DNA of 35,398 nt, from NCBI GenBank assembly GCA_003009755.1, contig PXUB01000039.1, positions 19,344 to 54,741 of the forward strand, in the 5' to 3' direction. The notes under the pieces are model-generated. The model searched no databases. It had not been told where the DNA came from and worked only from the letters and a program-made list of their open reading frames with translations. The translations under genes and the position numbers were made by a program. Numbering within the stretch: position 1 is the first letter of the stretch; each line of letters begins with the position of its first letter. Below, in pieces: positions 17,504 through 30,499 of this stretch. The stretch is from Thermoplasmatales archaeon SW_10_69_26 (lineage in GTDB: Archaea; Thermoplasmatota; SW-10-69-26).

Positions 17504-19531
17504 CTGGCCCTCAAGCCGGAGCAACTCACGCGCCTGGCGATCGTCGCCCACGACTCTCGCCAGGACGCCATCATCGAGACCCTGCACGATCTGCAGCTCG
17601 CTCACATCCAAGAGTACGCGAAGGAGGAGGCCGAGGATCTCGACATCGGGGATCCCCGGCCGGAGGCCTCCCAAGCCAGCCAGCGCCTCGTCCGCATCCG
17701 CGGCCTGCTACACACGCTGGATCTCGACGGCGAACCCTCGCGCAAGCTCCCGACCGACTCCGTCCGGCAACGCCTCGACGACCAGCTCGACACGATCGAG
17801 ACCGAGGTCCACCAGGCCAAGCAACGCCGCGACGAGGTCGAACGCGAGCTCAACCAGACCGAAGACCGCATCGAGCGCCTGCGCCCGTTTCGACACCTGC
17901 CGCTGGCGTTCGAGGACTACCACGGCTACGAGACCCTCGAGGTCTTCGTCGGCCGCGGTCCCGAGGAGCTCGAGAGACGCCTCGCCGGCGAGCTCGACCG
18001 CTACGATCACTTCGAAGGCGGCGAGCTCGACGCCGTGTTCGTCCACGAGGACGAAGCCGACCGCGCCCGCGACGTGCTCGTCCGGGAGGGCTTCCGCAAC
18101 GTGGACGTCCCCGCCGAGGAGGGCGCCCCCGACGAAGAGCTCCAGCGCGCCCGCAGCGAGGCCGAAGACCTGCGCGACGAGCTGGCTCAACGTGAGGCCC
18201 AGCTCGCCCAGCTCGCCGACCAGTACGGCGACCTGCTCCTCTGCGCCGAAGAGGACCTGTCCATCACCGTCGAGAAAGCCGAGGCCCCGCTGGAGTGGGC
18301 CGCCACCGACCGCACGTTCATCTGCGACGCCTGGGTCCCCACCCAGCAGCTCGACGAGGTGAAGACCGCCCTCACCTCGGCCACCAACGGCAACGTCCAC
18401 TTCGAGACGCTCGACGATGGAGACCCCGACGTCCACCACCGCGAGGAGGAGCCGCCGACCCGGTACGACCACCGGGACTCGGTCGAACCCTACGACTTCC
18501 TCATGGAGACCTTCTCCACGCCGCGCTACAACGAGATCGATCCCACCCTCATCCTGTCCCTCGTCTTCCCGCTGTTCCTCGGGTTCGTCATCGGCGACTT
18601 CGGCTACGGGCTCGTCATGGTGCCCTTGGGCATCTGGCTGTACCGTGGCCTGGGTGCCAAGTCCGAGGCGGCCCGTTCCCTCGGGTTCGCCATCGCCGTC
18701 GCCGGCGTGTGGTCGATCCTGTTCGGCGGGTTGCTGTTCAAAGATGCCCTAGGAATCCCCATGTACCACGCCGAGCACGGGCTCAGCTGGCCCTCGCTGC
18801 TCGGCACGATCGGGCTCGCCGAACCCGCGATCCACAAGATCGAAGCCGGCGGCGTGCGCGCCATGCTGGCGCTGTCCCTGCTGGCAGCCTTCGTGCACCT
18901 GTTCCTCGGGTTCATCTTCGGCTTCGTCAACGAGATCGGGCACAACACCAAGCACGCCATCGCGCAACTCGGTTGGATGGTCACGCTGACCGGGATCGTG
19001 CTGCTCACGATCGTCCACGGCCCGGAGAACATGATCTCCGGCTACCTGGTCAACGGCTTGGACCTGGGCCAGGCGCACTTCGATCACGGGCACGTAGAGA
19101 GCATGACGTTCAGCCCGTTCGCGCAGATGCTGCCCTGGTACTTGCTGGGGCCGGGCGTGCTCGTGCTGGTGCTCACCGAAGGCCTCATGGGCCTCATGGA
19201 GACGGTGAGCCTGCTGGCCAACGTCATCTCCTACACCCGGTTGGCCGGGATCGCCGTCGCCAAGGGCGGCATCGTGGCCGCGTTCAACGAGATCTTCCTG
19301 GAGCGGATGGTCCTGGACCCCAGCACTGGGATCCTGGTCATCGTGGCCGGGTTCGCGCTGTTCGCGATCTCCCAGTTGCTGATGTTCGTGCTGGGCTTGC
19401 TCAGCGGGGGTATCCAGAGCATCCGTCTCAACTACGTCGAGTTCTTCCTGAAGTTCTTCGAAGGCGGCGGGGAACGCTTCTCGCCGTTCGGACGAGACCG
19501 TCAGTACACGATCGGTAACGAATCGAGGTGA
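17504..19531 (+). CDS. atpI: A-type ATP synthase subunit I (membrane stator), CTG start
   Basis: 675-residue stator subunit. The first residues LALKPEQLTRLAIVAHDSRQ and AIIETLHDLQLAHIQEY match the usual N-terminus of archaeal subunit I ('M..P..M.kv.i.g.k...d.vi..Lhelg.lhi.e'). Cytoplasmic domain with coiled coils at about residues 85-125 and 210-240, then about eight membrane helices from residue 345 on, including the conserved arginine-containing segment (VSLLANVISYTRLAGIAVAK) of the proton path. There is no ATG, GTG or TTG in frame between 17504 and 18035, and starting at 18035 would remove about 177 conserved residues. The likely start is therefore CTG 17504, with AGGGGG about 7 nt upstream, or TGA readthrough from atpH. 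Confidence 0.88.
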   Translation: MALKPEQLTRLAIVAHDSRQDAIIETLHDLQLAHIQEYAKEEAEDLDIGDPRPEASQASQRLVRIRGLLHTLDLDGEPSRKLPTDSVRQRLDDQLDTIETEVHQAKQRRDEVERELNQTEDRIERLRPFRHLPLAFEDYHGYETLEVFVGRGPEELERRLAGELDRYDHFEGGELDAVFVHEDEADRARDVLVREGFRNVDVPAEEGAPDEELQRARSEAEDLRDELAQREAQLAQLADQYGDLLLCAEEDLSITVEKAEAPLEWAATDRTFICDAWVPTQQLDEVKTALTSATNGNVHFETLDDGDPDVHHREEEPPTRYDHRDSVEPYDFLMETFSTPRYNEIDPTLILSLVFPLFLGFVIGDFGYGLVMVPLGIWLYRGLGAKSEAARSLGFAIAVAGVWSILFGGLLFKDALGIPMYHAEHGLSWPSLLGTIGLAEPAIHKIEAGGVRAMLALSLLAAFVHLFLGFIFGFVNEIGHNTKHAIAQLGWMVTLTGIVLLTIVHGPENMISGYLVNGLDLGQAHFDHGHVESMTFSPFAQMLPWYLLGPGVLVLVLTEGLMGLMETVSLLANVISYTRLAGIAVAKGGIVAAFNEIFLERMVLDPSTGILVIVAGFALFAISQLLMFVLGLLSGGIQSIRLNYVEFFLKFFEGGGERFSPFGRDRQYTIGNESR

Positions 19532-19538
19532 ATCGAGA

Positions 19539-19766
19539 ATGGTTTCCGCAGGATTGGCAGGTATCGGAGTTGGGCTCGCTGTTGGACTCGCTGGTCTCGC
19601 CACGGGCTGGGCCATGCGTGACATCGGTGCCGCAGCCGTCGGCGCCACCGCCGAGAACGAGGAGATGTTCGGTCGAGGCCTCGTCCTCATGGTGATCCCG
19701 GAGACGATCGTCCTCTTCGGGTTCGTCATCGCGTTCCTCCTCCTCGGCGAGATCCCCGGTATGTGA
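19539..19766 (+). CDS. atpK: A-type ATP synthase subunit K (proteolipid ring)
   Basis: 75-residue ring subunit with a single hairpin of two helices: GLAGIGVGLAVGLAGLATGW, and the second (GLVLMVIPETIVLFGFVIAFLLLG) with the ion-carrying Glu55 in PETIVLFG. The connecting loop RDIGAAAVGATAENEEMFGR faces the cytoplasm. One hairpin per chain with one carboxylate is the usual synthase-type design. The sequence alone does not settle H+ versus Na+ coupling. The start ATG 19539 has a GAGGTGA ribosome-binding site about 8 nt upstream. Confidence 0.95.
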   Translation: MVSAGLAGIGVGLAVGLAGLATGWAMRDIGAAAVGATAENEEMFGRGLVLMVIPETIVLFGFVIAFLLLGEIPGM

Positions 19767-19791
19767 ACCGGCGCGAGCCAGGAGAGCAACG

Positions 19792-20355
19792 ATGGGACTC
19801 GAGCAGGTCATCGACGACATCCGAGAGGAAGGCGAGGCTGAGGTCGAGGCGATCCGTGCCGAGGCCGAGGAGGAAGCCCAAGCCATCCGCGAGGACGCCG
19901 AGAACCGAGCCCAGGAACGCAAGCAGGAGATCCTGGACGAGGCCGACGACGAAGCCGAGGCCGAGCGCCAGCGCATCGTCGCGAACGCTCAGCTGCAAGC
20001 CAAGAAGAAGCGGCTCAACGCCGAATCCGACGTCCTGTCGTCGGTGCGCTCCCGCGTCGAGTCCCGGTTGGCGAACCTCGACGAGGACGACCGCCGCGAG
20101 CTGATCGAAACCTACATCGAGGGGTCCGGCGCCGACGAGCTCGGCGACGGGGCCAAGGCCTGGGGTCGATCGGAGGACCAGGCCATCCTCGAGGATCTCG
20201 GCTTCACCTTCGAGGGCGAGATCGACTGCGTCGGCGGCACCGTGCTCGAGAGCCCGGAGGGCGACATCCGCGAGGATCTCCGGTTCGACGAGGTTCTCGA
20301 CGAGATCTGGCGCGAGGAGATCCACGAGATCGCCTCCGACCTCCTGGAGCGGTGA
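19792..20355 (+). CDS. atpE: A-type ATP synthase subunit E (peripheral stalk)
   Basis: 187-residue stalk subunit. Residues 1-85 are a long charged helix (IDDIREEGEAEVEAIRAEAE...ERQRIVANAQLQAKKKRLNA), the part that pairs with subunit H. The rest is the globular C-terminal head-binding domain, ending VLDEIWREEIHEIASDLLER, where the family has a conserved 'fd.vl.e.w.....ia..Lf'. ATG 19792 is preceded by GGAGAG. It overlaps the reading frame of the next gene only at the stop region, and the operon order is normal. Confidence 0.93.
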   Translation: MGLEQVIDDIREEGEAEVEAIRAEAEEEAQAIREDAENRAQERKQEILDEADDEAEAERQRIVANAQLQAKKKRLNAESDVLSSVRSRVESRLANLDEDDRRELIETYIEGSGADELGDGAKAWGRSEDQAILEDLGFTFEGEIDCVGGTVLESPEGDIREDLRFDEVLDEIWREEIHEIASDLLER

Positions 20356-20357
20356 CG

Positions 20358-21419
20358 ATGTTCTCCGGAGTGGGCGAGTTGCTGGGCATGGGATCCTCGG
20401 GCGGCGGACGCTCGAACTACCCCTACGTGACCGCACGCGTGCGATCGATGAAGACCCACCTGTTGCCCGAGGAGGAATACGCACGGATGGTCGCTCGCGA
20501 CGTGCACGAGATCGCCCGCTCCCTGCAGGAGGGCCGCTACCAGGAGCAGATCGACCGGCTGTCCTCCGAGTACAGCGGTGCCCAGCTCATCGAGCAAGCG
20601 ACCTGGCAAGGCATGGGCAACGACTTCCAGCGCATCCTCGAGTGGTGCGAGGGCCCGCTCGAGGACATGGTGGCCCGCTACTTCGAGCGGTTCACCGTCT
20701 ACAACCTGAAGACCGCGCTCCGCGGCGCGCGAAGCGGCGCCACGTCCACGCAGTCCGAGCAAGCGCTCGTCCCCGTCGGCCTCGTCGCCCGCGACGACTG
20801 GCGAGCCGCGCTCAACGCGGACTCGCTGCCCGAAGCGATCGAGGCGCTGCGCACGCTCCCGTACGGGGACGTGATCCAGAACATGGACGAGGAGCCGTTG
20901 CCCGTCATCGAGAACGCGCTGGACCACGCCTACTACGACCGGTTGATCTCGTCGGTCGAGGCCGACGATCGGCCGCGCGAGGCCTACCTGACGTTCCTCC
21001 GCCGCGAGATCGACACCATCAACCTCAAGAACATCTTCCGCGCCAAACACGCGGGCATCGAAGAGTACGAGCACGTCGAGGGCGGCGAGGACGTCGACGA
21101 GGAGCTGGCCCGTCGCATCCTGCAAGCCGACTGGGAGGAGGTCTCCGCCATGCTCGACGAGACGGCCTACGGGGACGATCTCCGTCCGGCCGTCGAGGAC
21201 TACCGCGAGTCCGGTGACCTGAACCGGCTCGCCAACGAGCTCGAGACCCTGCACCTGGAGGAAGCCGACACCTTCGGCCACCGCTACCCGCTTTCCATCC
21301 TCCCGATCATCGACTACGTGCTCCGCAAAGAGCGAGAGGTCGACCGCCTGCGCATGATCGCGTTCGGCAAACAGGCCGGCCTCTCCCGAGACGAGATCGA
21401 ACAACTGGTAACGGACTGA
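20358..21419 (+). CDS. atpC: A-type ATP synthase subunit C (rotor-ring adaptor)
   Basis: 353-residue subunit that caps the K ring and connects it to the central stalk. SNYPYVTARVRSMKTHLLPE is the family N-terminus, followed by helical repeats (three-domain, funnel-shaped fold), with ENALDHAYYDRL, INLKNIFRAK and SILPIIDYVLRKEREVDRLR then MIAFGKQAGLS as hallmarks. I prefer ATG 20358, which has GGAG 8 nt upstream, to GTG 20352, which overlaps the atpE stop. Residues 1-18 before SNYPY are Gly/Ser-rich (FSGVGELLGMGSSGGGR) and longer than usual. Confidence 0.94.
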   Translation: MFSGVGELLGMGSSGGGRSNYPYVTARVRSMKTHLLPEEEYARMVARDVHEIARSLQEGRYQEQIDRLSSEYSGAQLIEQATWQGMGNDFQRILEWCEGPLEDMVARYFERFTVYNLKTALRGARSGATSTQSEQALVPVGLVARDDWRAALNADSLPEAIEALRTLPYGDVIQNMDEEPLPVIENALDHAYYDRLISSVEADDRPREAYLTFLRREIDTINLKNIFRAKHAGIEEYEHVEGGEDVDEELARRILQADWEEVSAMLDETAYGDDLRPAVEDYRESGDLNRLANELETLHLEEADTFGHRYPLSILPIIDYVLRKEREVDRLRMIAFGKQAGLSRDEIEQLVTD

Positions 21420-21426
21420 GCCCACG

Positions 21427-21735
21427 ATGGACGAGAAACAACTGGCTGCGATCGGTCCCGAGGACTTCGTGCTCGGGTTCCAACTCGCGGGCGTCGAGGA
21501 GGCCCGGGAGACGACCCCGGCGTCCTACGAAGAGGACATCCAAGCCCTCCTCGACCATCCCGACGTGGGCATCATCATCGCGCGCCACGAGGACGTGGCG
21601 TCGCTTCCCGACAACGTACGGTCGGAGGTCACCGGTTCCGTGGACCCCGTCGTCATCCAGCTGGGTGGCGGAGCCGGCGAGGGCCTCCGAGAACAGATCC
21701 GATCAGCGATCGGTATCGACCTCATGGAAGAGTGA
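21427..21735 (+). CDS. atpF: A-type ATP synthase subunit F (central stalk)
   Basis: 102-residue Rossmann-like subunit of the rotor stalk. [20 protein letters not shown] is the typical first strand and helix ('v.gd.d.v.GFrLaGv'), followed by [20 protein letters not shown] and [10 protein letters not shown], all in normal order. The C-terminal helix [16 protein letters not shown] reaches toward the catalytic head and is known to modulate ATPase activity. The start ATG lies 7 nt after the atpC stop. Confidence 0.95.
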
Positions 21736-21740
21736 TCCAC

Positions 21741-23501
21741 ATGGCCATGGCAGACCAACAGACCGAGTCCGGCGGCCGCATCACGCGCGTGGCTGGGCCC
21801 GTCGTGACCGCCGAAGGCCTCACCAGCGGCATGTACGACGTCGTGTACGTCGGCGAGGAGGAGCTGATGGGTGAGGTGATCGAGATCGACGGCGACAAGA
21901 CCCTCATCCAAGTGTACGAGGAGACGGGGGGCATCAAGCCCGGCGAACCCGTCGAGGAGACGCACCAGCCGCTCACCGTCGACCTCGCCCCCGGGCTCGT
22001 GTCGTCCGTGTACGACGGCATCCAGCGCCCGCTCGACACCCTGCGCGCCGAGATGGGCGACTTCATCGACCGCGGCGTCACCGCGCCCGGCGTCGATCTC
22101 GACAAGACGTGGGAGTTCAACCCCACCGTCAGCGAGGGCGACCCGGTCGAGGCTGGCGACGTGATCGGCAAGGTCCCCGAATCCCCGTCGATCACCCACC
22201 GCGTCATGGTCCCCCCGAACGTCGAGGGGACCGTCGCCGAGATCGAGCAAGGCGAGTTCACGGTCGAGGAGACCGTGTGCCGGCTCGAAGACGGCACCGA
22301 GATCCGGATGCGGCAGGAGTGGCCGGTCCGCGAGGCCCGTCCCTACGAGACCAAGCACCGCCCGACGGTGCCCCTCATCACCGGGCAGCGCATCCTGGAC
22401 ACCTTGTTCCCGATCGCCAAGGGCGGCACGGCCGCGATCCCGGGCCCGTTCGGCTCCGGGAAGACGGTCACCCAGCAGTCCCTGGCTAAGTGGAGCGACG
22501 CCGACCTCGTCGTCTACATCGGGTGCGGCGAGCGCGGCAACGAGATGACCGAGGTCCTCGAGGAGTTCCCCGAGCTCGAGGACCCGCAGACCGGTAACGC
22601 GCTGATGGACCGCACCGTCCTCATCGCGAACACCTCCAACATGCCGGTCGCGGCCCGCGAATCTTCGATTTACACAGGGATCACGATCGCCGAGTACTAC
22701 CGCGACATGGGGTACAGCGTGGCCCTCATGGCCGACTCCACGTCGCGGTGGGCCGAAGCGATGCGCGAGATCAGCTCCCGGCTCGAGGAGATGCCCGGCG
22801 AGGAGGGCTACCCGGCCTACCTGGCGGCCCGCCTGGCCGAGTTCTACGAGCGAGCTGGCCGCGTCGAGACGCTGAACGGCAAGGAAGGCTCCGTCACCGT
22901 GATCGGGGCCGTGTCCCCGCCCGGCGGTGACTTCTCCGAGCCGGTCACCCAGAACACGCTGCGCATCGTCAAGGTGTTCTGGGCCCTGGACAGCGACCTC
23001 GCCCAACGCCGGCACTTCCCGGCGATCAACTGGCTCGACAGCTACTCGCTGTACGAGTCCGACCTCGAAGGGTGGTTCGAGGACGAGGTCGACGAGGAGT
23101 GGGGCGACCTGCGCACGCAGATCATGGACATCCTGCAGGAGGAGTCCGAGCTGCAGGACATCGTGCAGCTCGTCGGATCCGACGCGCTGCCCGAGGACCA
23201 GCAGCTCACGCTCGAGGTTGCCCGCCTCATCCGTGAGGTGTTCCTCCAGCAGAACGCCTTCCACCCGGTCGAGACGTACAGCGCTCCCCAGAAGAGCTTC
23301 AAGATCCTCAAGGGCATCCAGCGGTTCAACGAGCTCGCGCGCGAGGCGCTCGACGAGGGCGTCCCCGTCGCCGAGATCAAGGACACCAGCGCGCCCGCCG
23401 AGCTCGCGCAGGCCCGCAACGAAGAGGACTTCGATCCGGTCTACGAGGACGTGATGCAGATGATGGAAGACGAGTTCGCGGAGCTCACGGAGGCGGTCTG
23501 A
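21741..23501 (+). CDS. atpA: A-type ATP synthase catalytic subunit A
   Basis: 586-residue catalytic subunit. N-terminal barrel ([16 protein letters not shown]), the bulge or non-homologous region ([20 protein letters not shown]...[19 protein letters not shown]), Walker [11 protein letters not shown] at residues 235-244, the catalytic glutamate in [20 protein letters not shown], Walker B in [20 protein letters not shown], and the arm [20 protein letters not shown]. Length and continuity show no intein, although archaeal A subunits sometimes carry one at the P-loop. ATG 21741 is preferred over GTG 21732 (overlapping the atpF stop) because GGAAGAG lies about 9 nt before it. Confidence 0.97.
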
Positions 23502-23502
23502 G

Positions 23503-24936
23503 ATGACGAAGGAGTACAAGACGGTCTCCGAGATCTCCGGCCCGCTCGTGTTCGTCGAACGAACCGAACCGGTCGGCTTCAACGAACTCGTCGAGATCAC
23601 CATGCCCAACGGCGACCGGCGCCGCGGGCAAGTGCTCGACACGAGCGAGGACTACGTCGCCGTGCAGGTGTTCGAGGGCACGACCGGCATCAACCGCGAT
23701 GCCTCGGTCAAGTTCCTCGGCGAAACCCTCAAGCTCCCGGTGAGCGAGGACCTGCTCGGCCGCATCCTCTCCGGCAGCGGCGACCCGCTCGACGGCGGTC
23801 CCGACGTCGTGCCCGAGGAACGGCTCGACATCGAGGGCGCCGCGATCAACCCGTGGGCCCGCGAGGAACCCAACGAGTGGATCCAAACCGGGATCAGCAC
23901 GATCGACGGCATGAACACGCTGGTCCGCGGTCAAAAGCTCCCGATCTTCTCGTCCAGCGGGCTCCCGCACAACGACATCGCGCTGCAGATCGCCCGCCAA
24001 GCCCAGGTGCGCGGCACCGACGAGGAGTTCGCCGTCGTGTTCTGCGCGATGGGCATCACGCACGAGGAGTCCTCGCAGTTCATGTCCCAGTTCGAGCAGA
24101 CCGGCGCCCTCGAGCGCGCGGTCGTGTTCCTCAACCTGGCCGACGACCCGGCCATCGAGCGCATGATCACCCCCCGGATGGCGCTCACCGCGGCCGAGTA
24201 CCTGGCCTACGAGCACGACTACCACGTGCTCGTGATCCTCACCGACATGACCAACTACTGCGAGTCGCTGCGCCAGATCGGCGCCGCTCGCGAAGAGGTC
24301 CCCGGTCGCCGCGGCTACCCCGGGTACATGTACACCGACCTGGCGATGCTCTACGAGCGCGCCGGCCGGATCGAGGGCCGCGATGGCACCATCACGCAGA
24401 TGCCGATCCTCACGATGCCGGGCGGCGACATCACGCACCCGATCCCGGACCTGACCGGGTACATCACCGAGGGCCAGCTCGTGGTCGATCGCGACCTCCA
24501 CCAGAAGGGCATCTACCCCCCGATCGACGTGCTGCCGTCCCTGTCCCGCCTGATGGAGGGCGGCATCGGGGAAGGCCTCACGCGCGAGGACCACGGCGGC
24601 GTCAGCGACCAGTGCTACGCCGCGTACGCTGAGGGCAAGGACCTGCGCGGCCTCGTCAACATCGTCGGCGAGGAGGCGCTCAGCGACCGCGACCAGGACT
24701 ACCTGGACTTCGCCGACGCCTTCGAGGACGAGTTCGTCCGCCAAGGCCGCGAAGAGGACCGCGCGATCGAGGAGACGCTCGGCATCGGCTGGGAGCTGCT
24801 CGCCAAGCTCGACACCGACGAGCTCAACCGCATCGACCGCGAGAACGTCGAGACCTACCACCCCGAGCTCGGATCCGCGTCCCCGGACGAGTCGGCCGCC
24901 GACGCGTCCGGCGAAGAGCTCGAGGCCGAGGCCTGA
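23503..24936 (+). CDS. atpB: A-type ATP synthase regulatory subunit B
   Basis: 477-residue non-catalytic nucleotide-binding subunit. It starts [20 protein letters not shown] one base after the atpA stop codon. The P-loop position reads [20 protein letters not shown], the degenerate 'S.SGLPHN' of B subunits in place of Walker [11 protein letters not shown]-like [19 protein letters not shown] and [18 protein letters not shown] match Walker B, and [20 protein letters not shown] follows. The last 30 or so residues ([21 protein letters not shown] at the end) form an acidic tail beyond the usual C-terminus, in keeping with the acidic proteome. Confidence 0.97.
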
Positions 24937-24959
24937 CCCCCGACGCGAGGCTCTCCCCC

Positions 24960-25643
24960 ATGGACCCCAAGGACGTCAAACCGACCCGGATGAAGCTCCT
25001 CGAGCTCAAGGACCGCATCGAGCTCTCCGAGAAGGGCCACAACCTGCTCGAGATGAAACGCGACGGTCTCATCATCGAGTTCTTCGACCTGCTCGAGGAG
25101 GCCAAGGACGCCATGACGAAGCTCGAGGACAAGCACGAGGACGCCACCCGCGCCCTCGCCATCGCCCAAGCCGTCGAGGGCACCATCCCCGTGCGATCGG
25201 CGGCGCTGTCGCTCGAGAACAGCCCTCGCATCGAGATCGGGACGAAGAACATCATGGGCGTCGTCGTCCCGGAGATCGAGGGGGAGAGCGTGCACACCGA
25301 CGTCTCCGAACGCGGGTACGGCACGATCGGCACCTCGCCCCGCATCGACACGGCCGTCGACGCCTACGAGGACCTCGTCGACGCCATCATCGCGGCCGCG
25401 GAGGCCGAAACCGCTCTCCGCAAGCTCCTCGACGAGATCGAGAAGACCAAGCGCCGCGTGAACGCGCTGGAGTTCAAGGTCATCCCCGAGCTCGAGGAAG
25501 CCCGCGACTTCATCGAGTTCCGGCTCGAGGAGCAGGAGCGCGAGGAGACCTTCCGTCTCAAGAAGATCAAGGACAAGAAAGAAGAAGAGGAGAAGGCCGC
25601 CCGCGAAGAGGCGGCGCGCCGTCGCGAGGAAGCCGAGAGCTGA
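24960..25643 (+). CDS. atpD: A-type ATP synthase subunit D (central stalk)
   Basis: 227-residue central shaft subunit, last gene of the operon. N-terminal helix ([20 protein letters not shown], then [17 protein letters not shown], typical of subunit D), short middle region ([20 protein letters not shown] and [10 protein letters not shown]), C-terminal helix ([40 protein letters not shown] pattern) and a highly charged tail ([20 protein letters not shown]) that may be disordered. Stop TGA 25641-25643 is followed by a strong hairpin and a pyrimidine-rich tract. Confidence 0.96.
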
Positions 25644-27852: not shown

Positions 27853-28134
27853 GTGGGCTGGGTCCGCTGGGTGTTGCTGGAGGGCGGCCCCACCCGGTTG
27901 GTCGCGCTCGTGGTCGGGCTCGCGTTCGTGGCGCTGCTGGTGGCTCGTTCCTCTCCCGACCCAGGTGAGCCCGAACGACGTCCCTCAACACCAACGCCCA
28001 TGCCCATCCAAGACCATGGGGACCCATGGCCGAGGGCTCGCGGGCCGGGACCAAGGATCGCTACGTCGCCGTCGTCGACCAGGACAAGGTCACCGACGAG
28101 GTCCGCGACATCGCGCTCAAGTACGACCCGTTGA
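27853..28134 (+). CDS. Doubtful small membrane protein between DUF389 and ABCE1
   Basis: The frame from GTG 27853, 3 nt after the DUF389 stop, reads VGWVRWVLLEGGPTRLVALV and VGLAFVALLVARSSPDPG, one credible membrane helix followed by a Pro-rich tail. It overlaps the ABCE1 gene by more than 100 nt, and the overlapping part (TRSPTRSATSRSSTTR) is low-complexity shadow sequence. The gene may be real and just end oddly, or only untranslated leader. Low confidence. Confidence 0.28.
   Translation: MGWVRWVLLEGGPTRLVALVVGLAFVALLVARSSPDPGEPERRPSTPTPMPIQDHGDPWPRARGPGPRIATSPSSTRTRSPTRSATSRSSTTR
28014..28029 (+). promoter_or_regulatory. Inverted repeat over the ABCE1 start codon
   Basis: CCATGGGGACCCATGG is an inverted repeat (CCATGG, loop GGAC, CCATGG; the innermost G-C pair can also close). 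Its right arm contains the ABCE1 ATG at 28026-28028. In RNA it would hide the start codon in a stem; it may also be chance. Confidence 0.35.
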
Positions 28135-29825
28135 ACCAGACGCCCGGCGAGCAGGGGTTCCACGTCACCGAGGACGGCCAGCTGCACATCGAGGACCACA
28201 AGGTCATCGAGGAGCACCGGATCGTCCAGAACAAGATCCCCAACGACGCGATCGAGATCCTCCGCCTGCCCGCCGAACGCGGCGAGCTCGTGCACCAGTA
28301 CGGCCCCAACGGGTTCCGCCTGTACGAGCTGGCGGCCCCGGTGGAGGACCGCGTCGTCGGCTTGCTGGGCCCCAACGGGGTCGGCAAGTCCTCGGCCCTG
28401 CGCATCCTCGACGGCTCCCTGCAGCCCAACCTCGGCCGGATCGAGGACCCCCCGGCGTGGGCCGAGATCGTGCAGCGGTTCCGTGGCACCGCCGCCCAGC
28501 GCTACTTGGAGAAGCTCGAAGCCGGCGAGGTGTCCACCGCCTACAAGCCCCAGCGCGTGGATCGCATCCCCGAGCACCACGGGGGCACGCCCGAGCAACT
28601 GCTCGCCCGCCGGGACGAGCGCGGCCGCCGAGAGCAAGCCCTCGAGGCGCTGGAGCTCGAGCACGTCGCCGACCGCCGGGTCGACGAGCTGTCCGGCGGC
28701 GAGCTGCAGCGGTTGGCGATCGCGGCCACGCTCGTGGCCGACGTCGACACCTACCTCGTCGACGAGCCCAGCTCCTACCTCGACGTCGGGCAGCGGTTGA
28801 CGATGGCCCGCGGCCTGGCCGAGCTGGCCGCCGACCGCGAGGTCATCGTCGTCGACCACGACCTCGTCACCCTCGACGTGCTCGCCGACCAGCTGCACGT
28901 GGTCTACGGCCAGCCCGGCGGGTTCGGCGTCGTCTCCCGGCCCCTGTCGGCTCGGCGAGGCATCAACCAGTTCCTGTCGGGTCGGCTCGAGGACGAGGAG
29001 ATCCGCATCCGGGAACAGGCGATCACGTTCCGCGAGGACCCAGCCCGCCGGGCCCGCGAGGGCGACCCGGTTGTGAGGGTCCCCTCGCTGACCAAGCGCT
29101 TCGACGGGTTCGAGCTCACCGTCGACCCGGGCACGATCCACGCCGGCGAGGTCGTCGCCGTGCTCGGCCGCAACGGGCTCGGCAAGACCACCTTCGCCCG
29201 CCTGCTGGCGGGGGCCTTGTCCCCGGACGAGGGCACCATCGAGGAGGAGGTCGCGATCGCCTACAAGCCCCAGTACCTCGACCCCGGCTTCGAGGGCACC
29301 GTCGGCACGTTGCTGGCCAGCCAGGTGGACGTCGAGGCCGCCGGCTTCCAGGCCGACATCCGCGGCCCCTTCGACCTCGATCCGCTCTGGGACGAACCCG
29401 TGCCCTCCCTCTCCGGCGGCGAACGCCAGCGCGTCGCCGTCGCGCTCGCGCTCGCCCGCGAAGCAGACGCCTACCTGCTGGACGAGCCCTCGGCCTACCT
29501 CGACGTCGAACGCCGCATGGCGCTGGCCGGCCGCCTGCGGCGCTTCGCCAGCCAACGCTCGACGCCCTGCCTGGTGATCGACCACGATCTGTCGCTGCTC
29601 GACGCCGTGGCCGACCGCGTCATGGTGTTCGAGGGCGATCCCGGTCGCCGCGGGCACGGGCGTTCACCCGAGCCCGTCCGGGAGGGCCTCGATCGGTTCC
29701 TGGCCTCGGTGGACGTGACCGTCCGCAAGGACGCCCGCACCGGTCGGCCCCGGGCCAACGATCCCGGCTCGCGCAAGGACCGCCAGCAGCGCGAGGCTGG
29801 GGAGTACTTCGCCAGCGAGGCCTAG
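28026..29825 (+). CDS. ABCE1 (RLI) ribosome-recycling ATPase lacking all Fe-S cysteines
   Basis: 599-residue twin-ATPase that splits ribosomes with aRF1/aPelota. NBD1: Walker A GPNGVGKS (115-122), the ABCE1-only helix-loop-helix insert (FRGTAAQRYLEKLEAGEV then YKPQRVDRIPE), signature LSGGELQR, Walker B YLVDEPSSYLDV, H-loop VDHD. Hinge: YGQPGGFGVVSRPLSARRGI and NQFLSG. NBD2: GRNGLGKTT, LSGGERQR, YLLDEPSAYLDVERR, IDHD. These fix the family. The N-terminal ferredoxin-like domain keeps its frame (YVAVVDQDK...LKYDP...NKIPNDAIEILRLP), but none of the eight cluster cysteines remains: the first set aligns to K21/V22, V26, A30, D34, and the second to I61, H64, V67, I71. Only one Cys is left in the whole protein, just before the second H-loop. 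The last 45 residues are a basic tail. Confidence 0.93.
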   Translation: MAEGSRAGTKDRYVAVVDQDKVTDEVRDIALKYDPLNQTPGEQGFHVTEDGQLHIEDHKVIEEHRIVQNKIPNDAIEILRLPAERGELVHQYGPNGFRLYELAAPVEDRVVGLLGPNGVGKSSALRILDGSLQPNLGRIEDPPAWAEIVQRFRGTAAQRYLEKLEAGEVSTAYKPQRVDRIPEHHGGTPEQLLARRDERGRREQALEALELEHVADRRVDELSGGELQRLAIAATLVADVDTYLVDEPSSYLDVGQRLTMARGLAELAADREVIVVDHDLVTLDVLADQLHVVYGQPGGFGVVSRPLSARRGINQFLSGRLEDEEIRIREQAITFREDPARRAREGDPVVRVPSLTKRFDGFELTVDPGTIHAGEVVAVLGRNGLGKTTFARLLAGALSPDEGTIEEEVAIAYKPQYLDPGFEGTVGTLLASQVDVEAAGFQADIRGPFDLDPLWDEPVPSLSGGERQRVAVALALAREADAYLLDEPSAYLDVERRMALAGRLRRFASQRSTPCLVIDHDLSLLDAVADRVMVFEGDPGRRGHGRSPEPVREGLDRFLASVDVTVRKDARTGRPRANDPGSRKDRQQREAGEYFASEA

Positions 29826-30499
29826 ACGGCGTCCTCGATCAGCTCGGCCAGGTGCTCGGCCTCGTCCTCGCGGCCCGGGTCGAAGCTCGTGAGCCGGAAG
29901 TTGCGTTCGGGATCCATCTCCGTCCGATGAGCGCCGGGGTTGACGTGCGTGGACCCGTCGGGCAACCGGATCGCGGGGCTGTGCGTGAAGCCCTCCTCGT
30001 ACCAGCCCTCCTCGGTCTCGGCGACGACCTGGGCCCGATGCCCGTCGTCGTAGACCTCGAGGAACCGCTCGCGGGCGAGCCCGACGTCCTCGGCCAGGTC
30101 GGCCAGCACGTGGCGCAGCGTGAGGCAGGCGTGCTCGGCGAAGAAGGCCTGCCGGATCCGCCAGTCCAGCTCCCACGCCATCTCGGGGTCGATCGACTCG
30201 GCGGCTTTGACGGCCTCGAAGGCGGGGAAGAACGTGGAGGGCCACTCGGCGATCTCGGCGTCGGGCCAGGGCTCGTAGGGGATCTGTTCCTCCAGGAGGA
30301 CGAGGCTGTGGGTCTCGACGTCCAGGATCCGCTTGGGCGTGGGAGCCTGCTTGTCGTACTCGATCGAAAGGCACCGCGAGCGGAAGCTGACGTCGTCGGG
30401 GACCTCGTCGTTGATCTGCCGCAACCGGTACCGCGTGAGGTAGGCGTGCGGGCAGTGCAGGTCCGAGAAGAACTCGACATCGGGCATCACGAGACCCAT
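29822..30499 (-). CDS. DsbA/FrnE-like thioredoxin-fold protein with single active-site cysteine
   Basis: 225-residue protein of the DsbA/FrnE (2-hydroxychromene-2-carboxylate isomerase-like) group. VEFFSDLHCPHAYLTRYRLR gives first strand and helix with C-P-H-A, i.e. only the first cysteine (Cys16) of a CxxC. Helical insert in the middle (AWELDWRIRQAFFAEHACLT then LRHVLADLAEDVGL) and THSPAIRLPDGSTHVNPGAH, in which SPAIRLP carries the cis-Pro-type segment of thioredoxin folds. A disulfide exchange role is doubtful with one cysteine; GSH-free isomerase or peroxidatic roles are possible. Start ATG 30499, or ATG 30487 (MPDVEFF), which fits the fold better. Its stop overlaps the ABCE1 stop region (convergent). 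Confidence 0.8.
   Translation of the reverse strand: MGLVMPDVEFFSDLHCPHAYLTRYRLRQINDEVPDDVSFRSRCLSIEYDKQAPTPKRILDVETHSLVLLEEQIPYEPWPDAEIAEWPSTFFPAFEAVKAAESIDPEMAWELDWRIRQAFFAEHACLTLRHVLADLAEDVGLARERFLEVYDDGHRAQVVAETEEGWYEEGFTHSPAIRLPDGSTHVNPGAHRTEMDPERNFRLTSFDPGREDEAEHLAELIEDAV

Follow-up and report, generated by a model that had tools for sequence, protein, structure and literature searches.

Few proteins of archaea and eukaryotes are as conserved as ABCE1 (RLI), whose [4Fe-4S] clusters are described as essential. Why a mechanical ATPase requires two redox-inert clusters is an open puzzle. Ribosome splitting by known ABCE1 requires intact clusters; their role is structural, and whether cells have ways to optimise ABCE1 function, or to replace it, when iron is limiting remains to be tested (PMC8153317). 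The contacts that archaeal ABCE1 makes in the 30S post-splitting complex have been described (PMC7196836). Here we report an intact, conserved Fe-S-free ABCE1 paralogue, P0001, encoded in the window (the whole stretch of 35,398 nucleotides that was analysed). No earlier description of a Cys-free archaeal ABCE1 paralogue was found in the open-licence literature.

Results

An ABCE1 homologue lacking the cluster cysteines

Judged by its sequence, P0001 is an ABCE1/RLI homologue without the cluster cysteines. It scored 679.1 bits against the NCBIfam RLI equivalog NF009945 (cut-off 469) and 156 bits against the ABC-F model NF000355, far under the cut-off of 380. As the curated NF009945 model labels the protein plain RLI, its Cys-free nature is concealed by annotation. 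Pfam recognised two ABC domains in P0001 and no match to Fer4_RLI or any Fer4 family, both of which are matched by the other ABCE1 of the genome. A sequence search of structure databases returned full-length matches to Pyrococcus abyssi (P. abyssi) ABCE1 and others. The two nucleotide-binding domains (NBDs) lie head to tail with complete Walker A and B motifs, Q-loops, signatures and H-loops, and all catalytic residues are kept (K121, Q176, S223, E247, H278, K387, Q416, S463, E487 and H520). The ABCE1-specific parts are likewise complete, as an earlier note on this DNA had claimed: the helix-loop-helix (HLH) insert, the hinges and both signatures were found by alignment (Table 1), with the HLH helices predicted by AF2 at residues 145-151 and 156-165.

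Table 1. Features of P0001 and neighbouring genes, in window coordinates
Feature	Position	Strand	Remarks
Cys-free ABCE1/RLI paralogue P0001	28026..29825	+	599 aa, ATG start
Ferredoxin-like N-domain (residues 12-82), all eight Fe-S cysteines absent	28059..28271	+	alignment and predicted structure
NBD1 Walker A region LGPNGVGKS, residues 114-122, K121	28365..28391	+	alignment, invariant K
NBD1 HLH insert, residues ~145-165, with RGT (R153 G154 T155)	28458..28520	+	alignment to 3BK7 and canonical ABCE1
NBD1 ABC signature LSGGELQR to Walker B/D-loop DEPSSYLD (E247), residues 222-253	28689..28784	+	alignment
Hinge 1, residues 310-326	28953..29003	+	R310, I313, N314 kept; invariant N316 position is E325
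NBD2 Walker A region GRNGLGKTT, residues 381-389, K387	29166..29192	+	alignment
NBD2 signature LSGGERQR to Walker B/D-loop DEPSAYLD (E487), residues 462-493	29409..29504	+	alignment
Hinge 2, residues 565-599	29718..29822	+	ribosome anchor kept
A-type ATPase cluster (subunit I, C, A, B, D-like ORFs)	18035..25643	+	just upstream of the SRPBCC, DUF389 and ABCE1-paralogue genes
DsbA-like thioredoxin-fold protein	29822..30499	-	convergent with the Cys-free ABCE1 gene; motif CPHA, not CPHC, i.e. one cysteine

We compared P0001 with other ABCE1 proteins in an alignment of 55 sequences, including 52 canonical ABCE1 from the same phylum. Each of the eight ligand columns is Cys in 52/52 canonical sequences; none is Cys in P0001, which has V22, V26, A30, D34, I61, H64, V67 and I71 at these positions. 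The earlier note, which had reported the loss of all eight [4Fe-4S] cysteines from the N-domain, is thus confirmed to the residue, its replacement positions matching the alignment columns exactly. The extent that it gave, 28026-28245, starts correctly and ends slightly short, the domain reaching about residue 82 (nt ~28271). The first C-x4-C loop has lost one residue, and the sole cysteine in the entire protein is at position 515. G001, an independent genome from a different genus, has a Cys-free copy with the same eight losses and, at 6/8 sites, the same replacement as P0001, so the losses reflect neither chance nor sequencing error. D34, H46, H54 and H64 (window ~28125-28217) are common to both Cys-free copies and could in principle be candidate ligands for another metal such as zinc.

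With a 55-sequence alignment of window and locus proteins as input, AF2 modelled P0001 with a mean pLDDT of 89.9 and a pTM of 0.88. Across residues 11-80 of the N-domain the block-mean pLDDT was 85-92. Its predicted strands (13-17, 45-47, 53-55, 76-80) and helices (24-32, 64-70) follow the beta-alpha-beta-beta-alpha-beta order of a ferredoxin-like fold, and the best Foldseek match was complete P. abyssi ABCE1 (3BK7; TM 0.89 over 595 columns). The structure prediction proposed earlier for residues 1-82 yielded a confident ferredoxin-like domain. The possibility that these residues are not homologous to the Fe-S domain found no support; the profile match, the predicted fold and the end-to-end match to 3BK7 all argue for homology.

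Ribosome contacts

Contact positions of archaeal ABCE1 were mapped onto the alignment in Sulfolobus solfataricus (S. solfataricus) numbering. R301, I304, N305, R565, R572, R574, S580, R584 and P25 are kept in P0001; in hinge 2 its own R567, R574, R576 and S582 correspond to R565, R572, R574 and S580. Both Cys-free proteins are changed at R2 (to Y), K15 (E), E19 (I), R28 (Q/N), E147 (A/P) and N316 (E/D). Both also have R in place of N70, a position that is itself G in 29/52 canonical rows. By alignment, then, the constant anchor in hinge 2 is intact and the post-splitting contacts, those of the N-domain at h5, h44 and uS12 and of N316 in hinge 1, are rewired. This combination suggests an ATPase that binds the ribosome and adopts a different closed state on it.

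The canonical copy and the phylogenetic spread

The source genome also carries a canonical eight-Cys ABCE1 on a contig other than that of P0001 (G000:C34:14214-15989). The protein, whose sequence contains ELCIGCGICVNKCPF, is 47% identical to P0001. PF04068 matched two frames of this genome: that of C34, 612 aa long, and one of 221 aa on C28, Tsr3-like as judged by length alone. P0001 as sole ABCE1 is ruled out by the C34 copy: it is a paralogue, and the lineage keeps Fe-S-dependent recycling. The proposal that ribosome recycling in this lineage runs on an apo domain consequently fails, for G001 as for the source genome; the alternative offered with it, a second, cysteine-bearing ABCE1 elsewhere in the genome, is what the genome search found, an outcome that the earlier note had itself named as refuting.

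The collection has one further genome of this family, G001, which holds the same Cys-free and canonical pair. Between the two genomes the Cys-free copies are 58% identical and the canonical copies 77%. The remaining five genomes of the class have one ABCE1 match each, canonical in 5/5, and no Cys-free ortholog turned up in these five or among 390 sampled genomes of the phylum, where P0001 matched G001 at 767 bits and the best others at 550 bits. A contig scan with short exact peptides of P0001, which senses close kin only and whose scanned set possibly left out near relatives of the source genome, found no close relative.

Genomic neighbourhood and partners

The P0001 gene lies downstream of A-ATPase genes and of genes for an SRPBCC-like and a DUF389 protein (Table 1). 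The Cys-free gene of G001, read by eye, is upstream of arginyl-tRNA-synthetase-like and Mrp-like genes. A conserved operon with the A-ATPase genes is ruled out because the neighbours in G001 differ; the two Cys-free loci share no gene neighbourhood, which counts against our main reading, set out below. Class genomes with eRF1_3 matches have two such proteins each, presumably aRF1 and aPelota. No additional eRF1_3 protein occurs in the family. With no eRF1/Pelota duplication, a dedicated release-factor partner for P0001 was rejected, and we count this too against the main reading.

Selection and origin

The N-domain is the best conserved part of the Cys-free pair (64.3% identity v 57.8% for NBD1 and 56.1% for the rest). 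Identities at the three codon positions, 64.5/78.0/49.2%, point to constraint at the protein level. In a tree of NBD columns the two Cys-free proteins pair at 100/100 on a long stem of 1.92 changes per site. Origin by duplication within the family was not rejected (p-AU 0.31), the long stem leaving the place of attachment unfixed. Conservation, motifs and fold support the earlier judgement that the gene is not a pseudogene, and the sequences show that P0001 is intact and selectively maintained in two genera of one archaeal family. The same pair persists in the sister genus, so selection seems to have favoured a form of this otherwise invariant translation factor that lacks iron.

A remodelled six-cysteine domain in related families

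Cysteine loss was also mapped across related genomes, as the earlier note had proposed. In at least 34 genomes of three families of the same phylum, f17, f25 and f6, the N-domain of the sole full-length ABCE1 detected is remodelled (carriers L095/L102-L112, L114-L120, L122, L126, L128, L129 and L144-L156), sole-copy status meaning one full-length match per genome; G045 has a 194-aa C-terminal ABCE1 fragment besides its full-length match. One example of the domain runs MRVAVLLEERCKPNSPAFDYLQKYAGMCGAECIQF..NKFRILETACPVCFTRAKLCPGDAVKIINLP. Canonical cysteines 2, 3, 4 and 7 are lost and 1, 5, 6 and 8 kept, and the six cysteines of the pattern C-x16-C-x3-C-x14/15-C-x2-C-x6-CP are invariant in 35/35 distinct remodelled sequences. 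AF2 modelled a remodelled ABCE1 with a low pTM of 0.48, and the fold match of this model is disregarded here. Derivation of the Cys-free domain from this remodelled one is unsupported, the canonical profile scoring higher (15.3 v 7.7 bits).

A quick NBD tree requires 7 switches between the domain types; starred branches force at least 5 of these. Same-genus pairs of differing domain type occur in g28, g45, g59, g42, g52 and g105, and in such pairs identity is about 15-60% over the first 60 residues and rises abruptly after them, mostly to 55-95%. One f17 protein is a mosaic (L147 of G355, genus g45), with NBDs closest to its own genus (82%) and an N-domain closest to f25 (78%). The patchy distribution resembles what horizontal exchange of the N-terminal segment would leave, with repeated conversion of the N-domain as the alternative. 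These single-copy genes are independent evidence that the Fe-S domain of the 'invariant' ABCE1 is alterable, a side finding that arguably outweighs the Cys-free paralogue. No relatives of remodelled ABCE1 were found on viral contigs, and no altered ABCE1 of marine group II in the open-licence literature. One genome, G339, carries two very similar canonical eight-Cys ABCE1 genes (L079 and L080).

Discussion

The reading that we favour is that P0001 is probably an iron-independent, ribosome-associated auxiliary ABCE1 that acts beside canonical holo-ABCE1 with altered post-splitting contacts. Ribosome binding, ATPase activity, splitting and the absence of metal are all things that we infer from sequence. 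The space of the two clusters would be occupied by protein side chains (V, V, A, I/T, V/I and I, with the conserved D34 and H64), so the protein may need no iron. ATP binding would persist, and with hinge 2 and the HLH insert the protein would still dock on the small subunit where ABCE1 does. Because the partners of h5, h44 and uS12 (R2, K15, E19, R28 and N316) are all replaced, the closed, post-splitting state would bring the N-domain and hinge 1 into other contacts. P0001 would then most likely be a condition-specific or auxiliary factor for ribosome recycling or anti-association, active when Fe-S supply fails. That only two genomes hold a Cys-free ABCE1 counts against this.

Since intact clusters are essential in known ABCE1, a Cys-free protein may not split ribosomes at all, and a Cys-free paralogue beside a normal ABCE1 fits a non-splitting regulator as well as a stress-active or iron-independent auxiliary factor. 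The nearest alternative, lying inside the main reading, is accordingly a non-splitting protein at the site of ABCE1 and the translational GTPases that serves hibernation, protection or competitive inhibition of canonical ABCE1. The anchors are kept and the splitting and post-splitting contacts lost, as such a role would have it, and in yeast Rli1 that is overexpressed or domain-deleted is dominant negative (PMC6088178). Yet both ATP sites appear fully catalytic, with both Walker B glutamates present, which would be needless in a simple plug, and we regard this role as possible rather than likely.

Somewhat unlikely in our estimation is a P0001 that splits ribosomes as well as canonical ABCE1 does, a true iron-independent recycling factor in which a hydrophobic core replaces the clusters structurally. 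The clusters are structural and not redox-catalytic (PMC8153317), an intact N-domain fold is predicted, no other part of the sequence is as constrained, and no ATPase or anchor residue is missing; against this, the FeSD contacts to rRNA and uS12 (R2, K15, E19, R28) and N316 of hinge 1 are replaced, yeast mutations in the contact network impair anti-association and are synthetically lethal (PMC7196836), and the canonical copy is retained.

The long stem (1.92 changes per site on the NBDs) and the faster divergence of the Cys-free than of the canonical pair (58% v 77% identity) would suit a protein neofunctionalised off the ribosome or decaying after duplication, but this is improbable given full-length ORFs in both genera, conserved motifs and rRNA-binding arginines of hinge 2, and an N-domain that is the most conserved region. 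An assembly or binning artefact, with the P0001 gene from another organism and one ABCE1 really present, can be set aside with near certainty despite a draft assembly of 49 contigs with an estimated contamination of 2.2%, as the P0001 contig also bears the A/V-ATPase operon, GC3 is 95.0 in P0001 and 96.5 in the canonical copy, and an independent genome has the same pair.

Returning to the auxiliary ABCE1 that we favour, P0001 is a natural protein with everything but the clusters and a canonical control in the same cell, which makes the puzzle of the redox-inert clusters testable by direct comparison. It is also a candidate for the replacement of ABCE1 under iron limitation, the question raised in PMC8153317. 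A broader and more tentative idea, which we hold possible rather than likely, is that ABCE1 clusters are both structural and replaceable: in this family a fully iron-free ABCE1 would split or guard ribosomes when Fe-S biogenesis fails, and other families of the phylum would use the reduced, remodelled six-cysteine domain in their only ABCE1.

Compared with known systems, P0001 resembles archaeal ABCE1/RLI (P. abyssi 3BK7, S. solfataricus 3OZX) in its two NBDs, HLH insert, hinges 1 and 2 and ferredoxin-like N-domain, and it matches 3BK7 end to end at 44% identity and TM 0.89. Unlike these proteins, it has 0/8 cluster cysteines, replaced N-domain contacts to rRNA and uS12 and a replaced N316, and it coexists with a canonical ABCE1. 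In Arabidopsis, both ABCE paralogues retain the Fe-S cysteines. Two ABCE genes per genome are a feature shared with plant ABCE1/ABCE2 pairs such as A. thaliana RLI1/RLI2 (PMC6088178; PMC7839781), whose products are 81% identical (PMC7839781). The ABCF ATPases (EttA, ABCF1) are, like P0001, soluble twin-ATPases on ribosomes without an Fe-S domain; P0001 differs from them in having the ABCE1 HLH insert and hinges, in falling under the ABC-F cut-off and in a TM of about 0.5. The remodelled ABCE1 of f17, f25 and f6, from the same phylum, has likewise lost the Fer4_RLI signature and cluster ligands; unlike P0001, it keeps 4/8 ligand cysteines together with two others, retains the R2/N70/N316-type contacts and is the sole copy in its genome.
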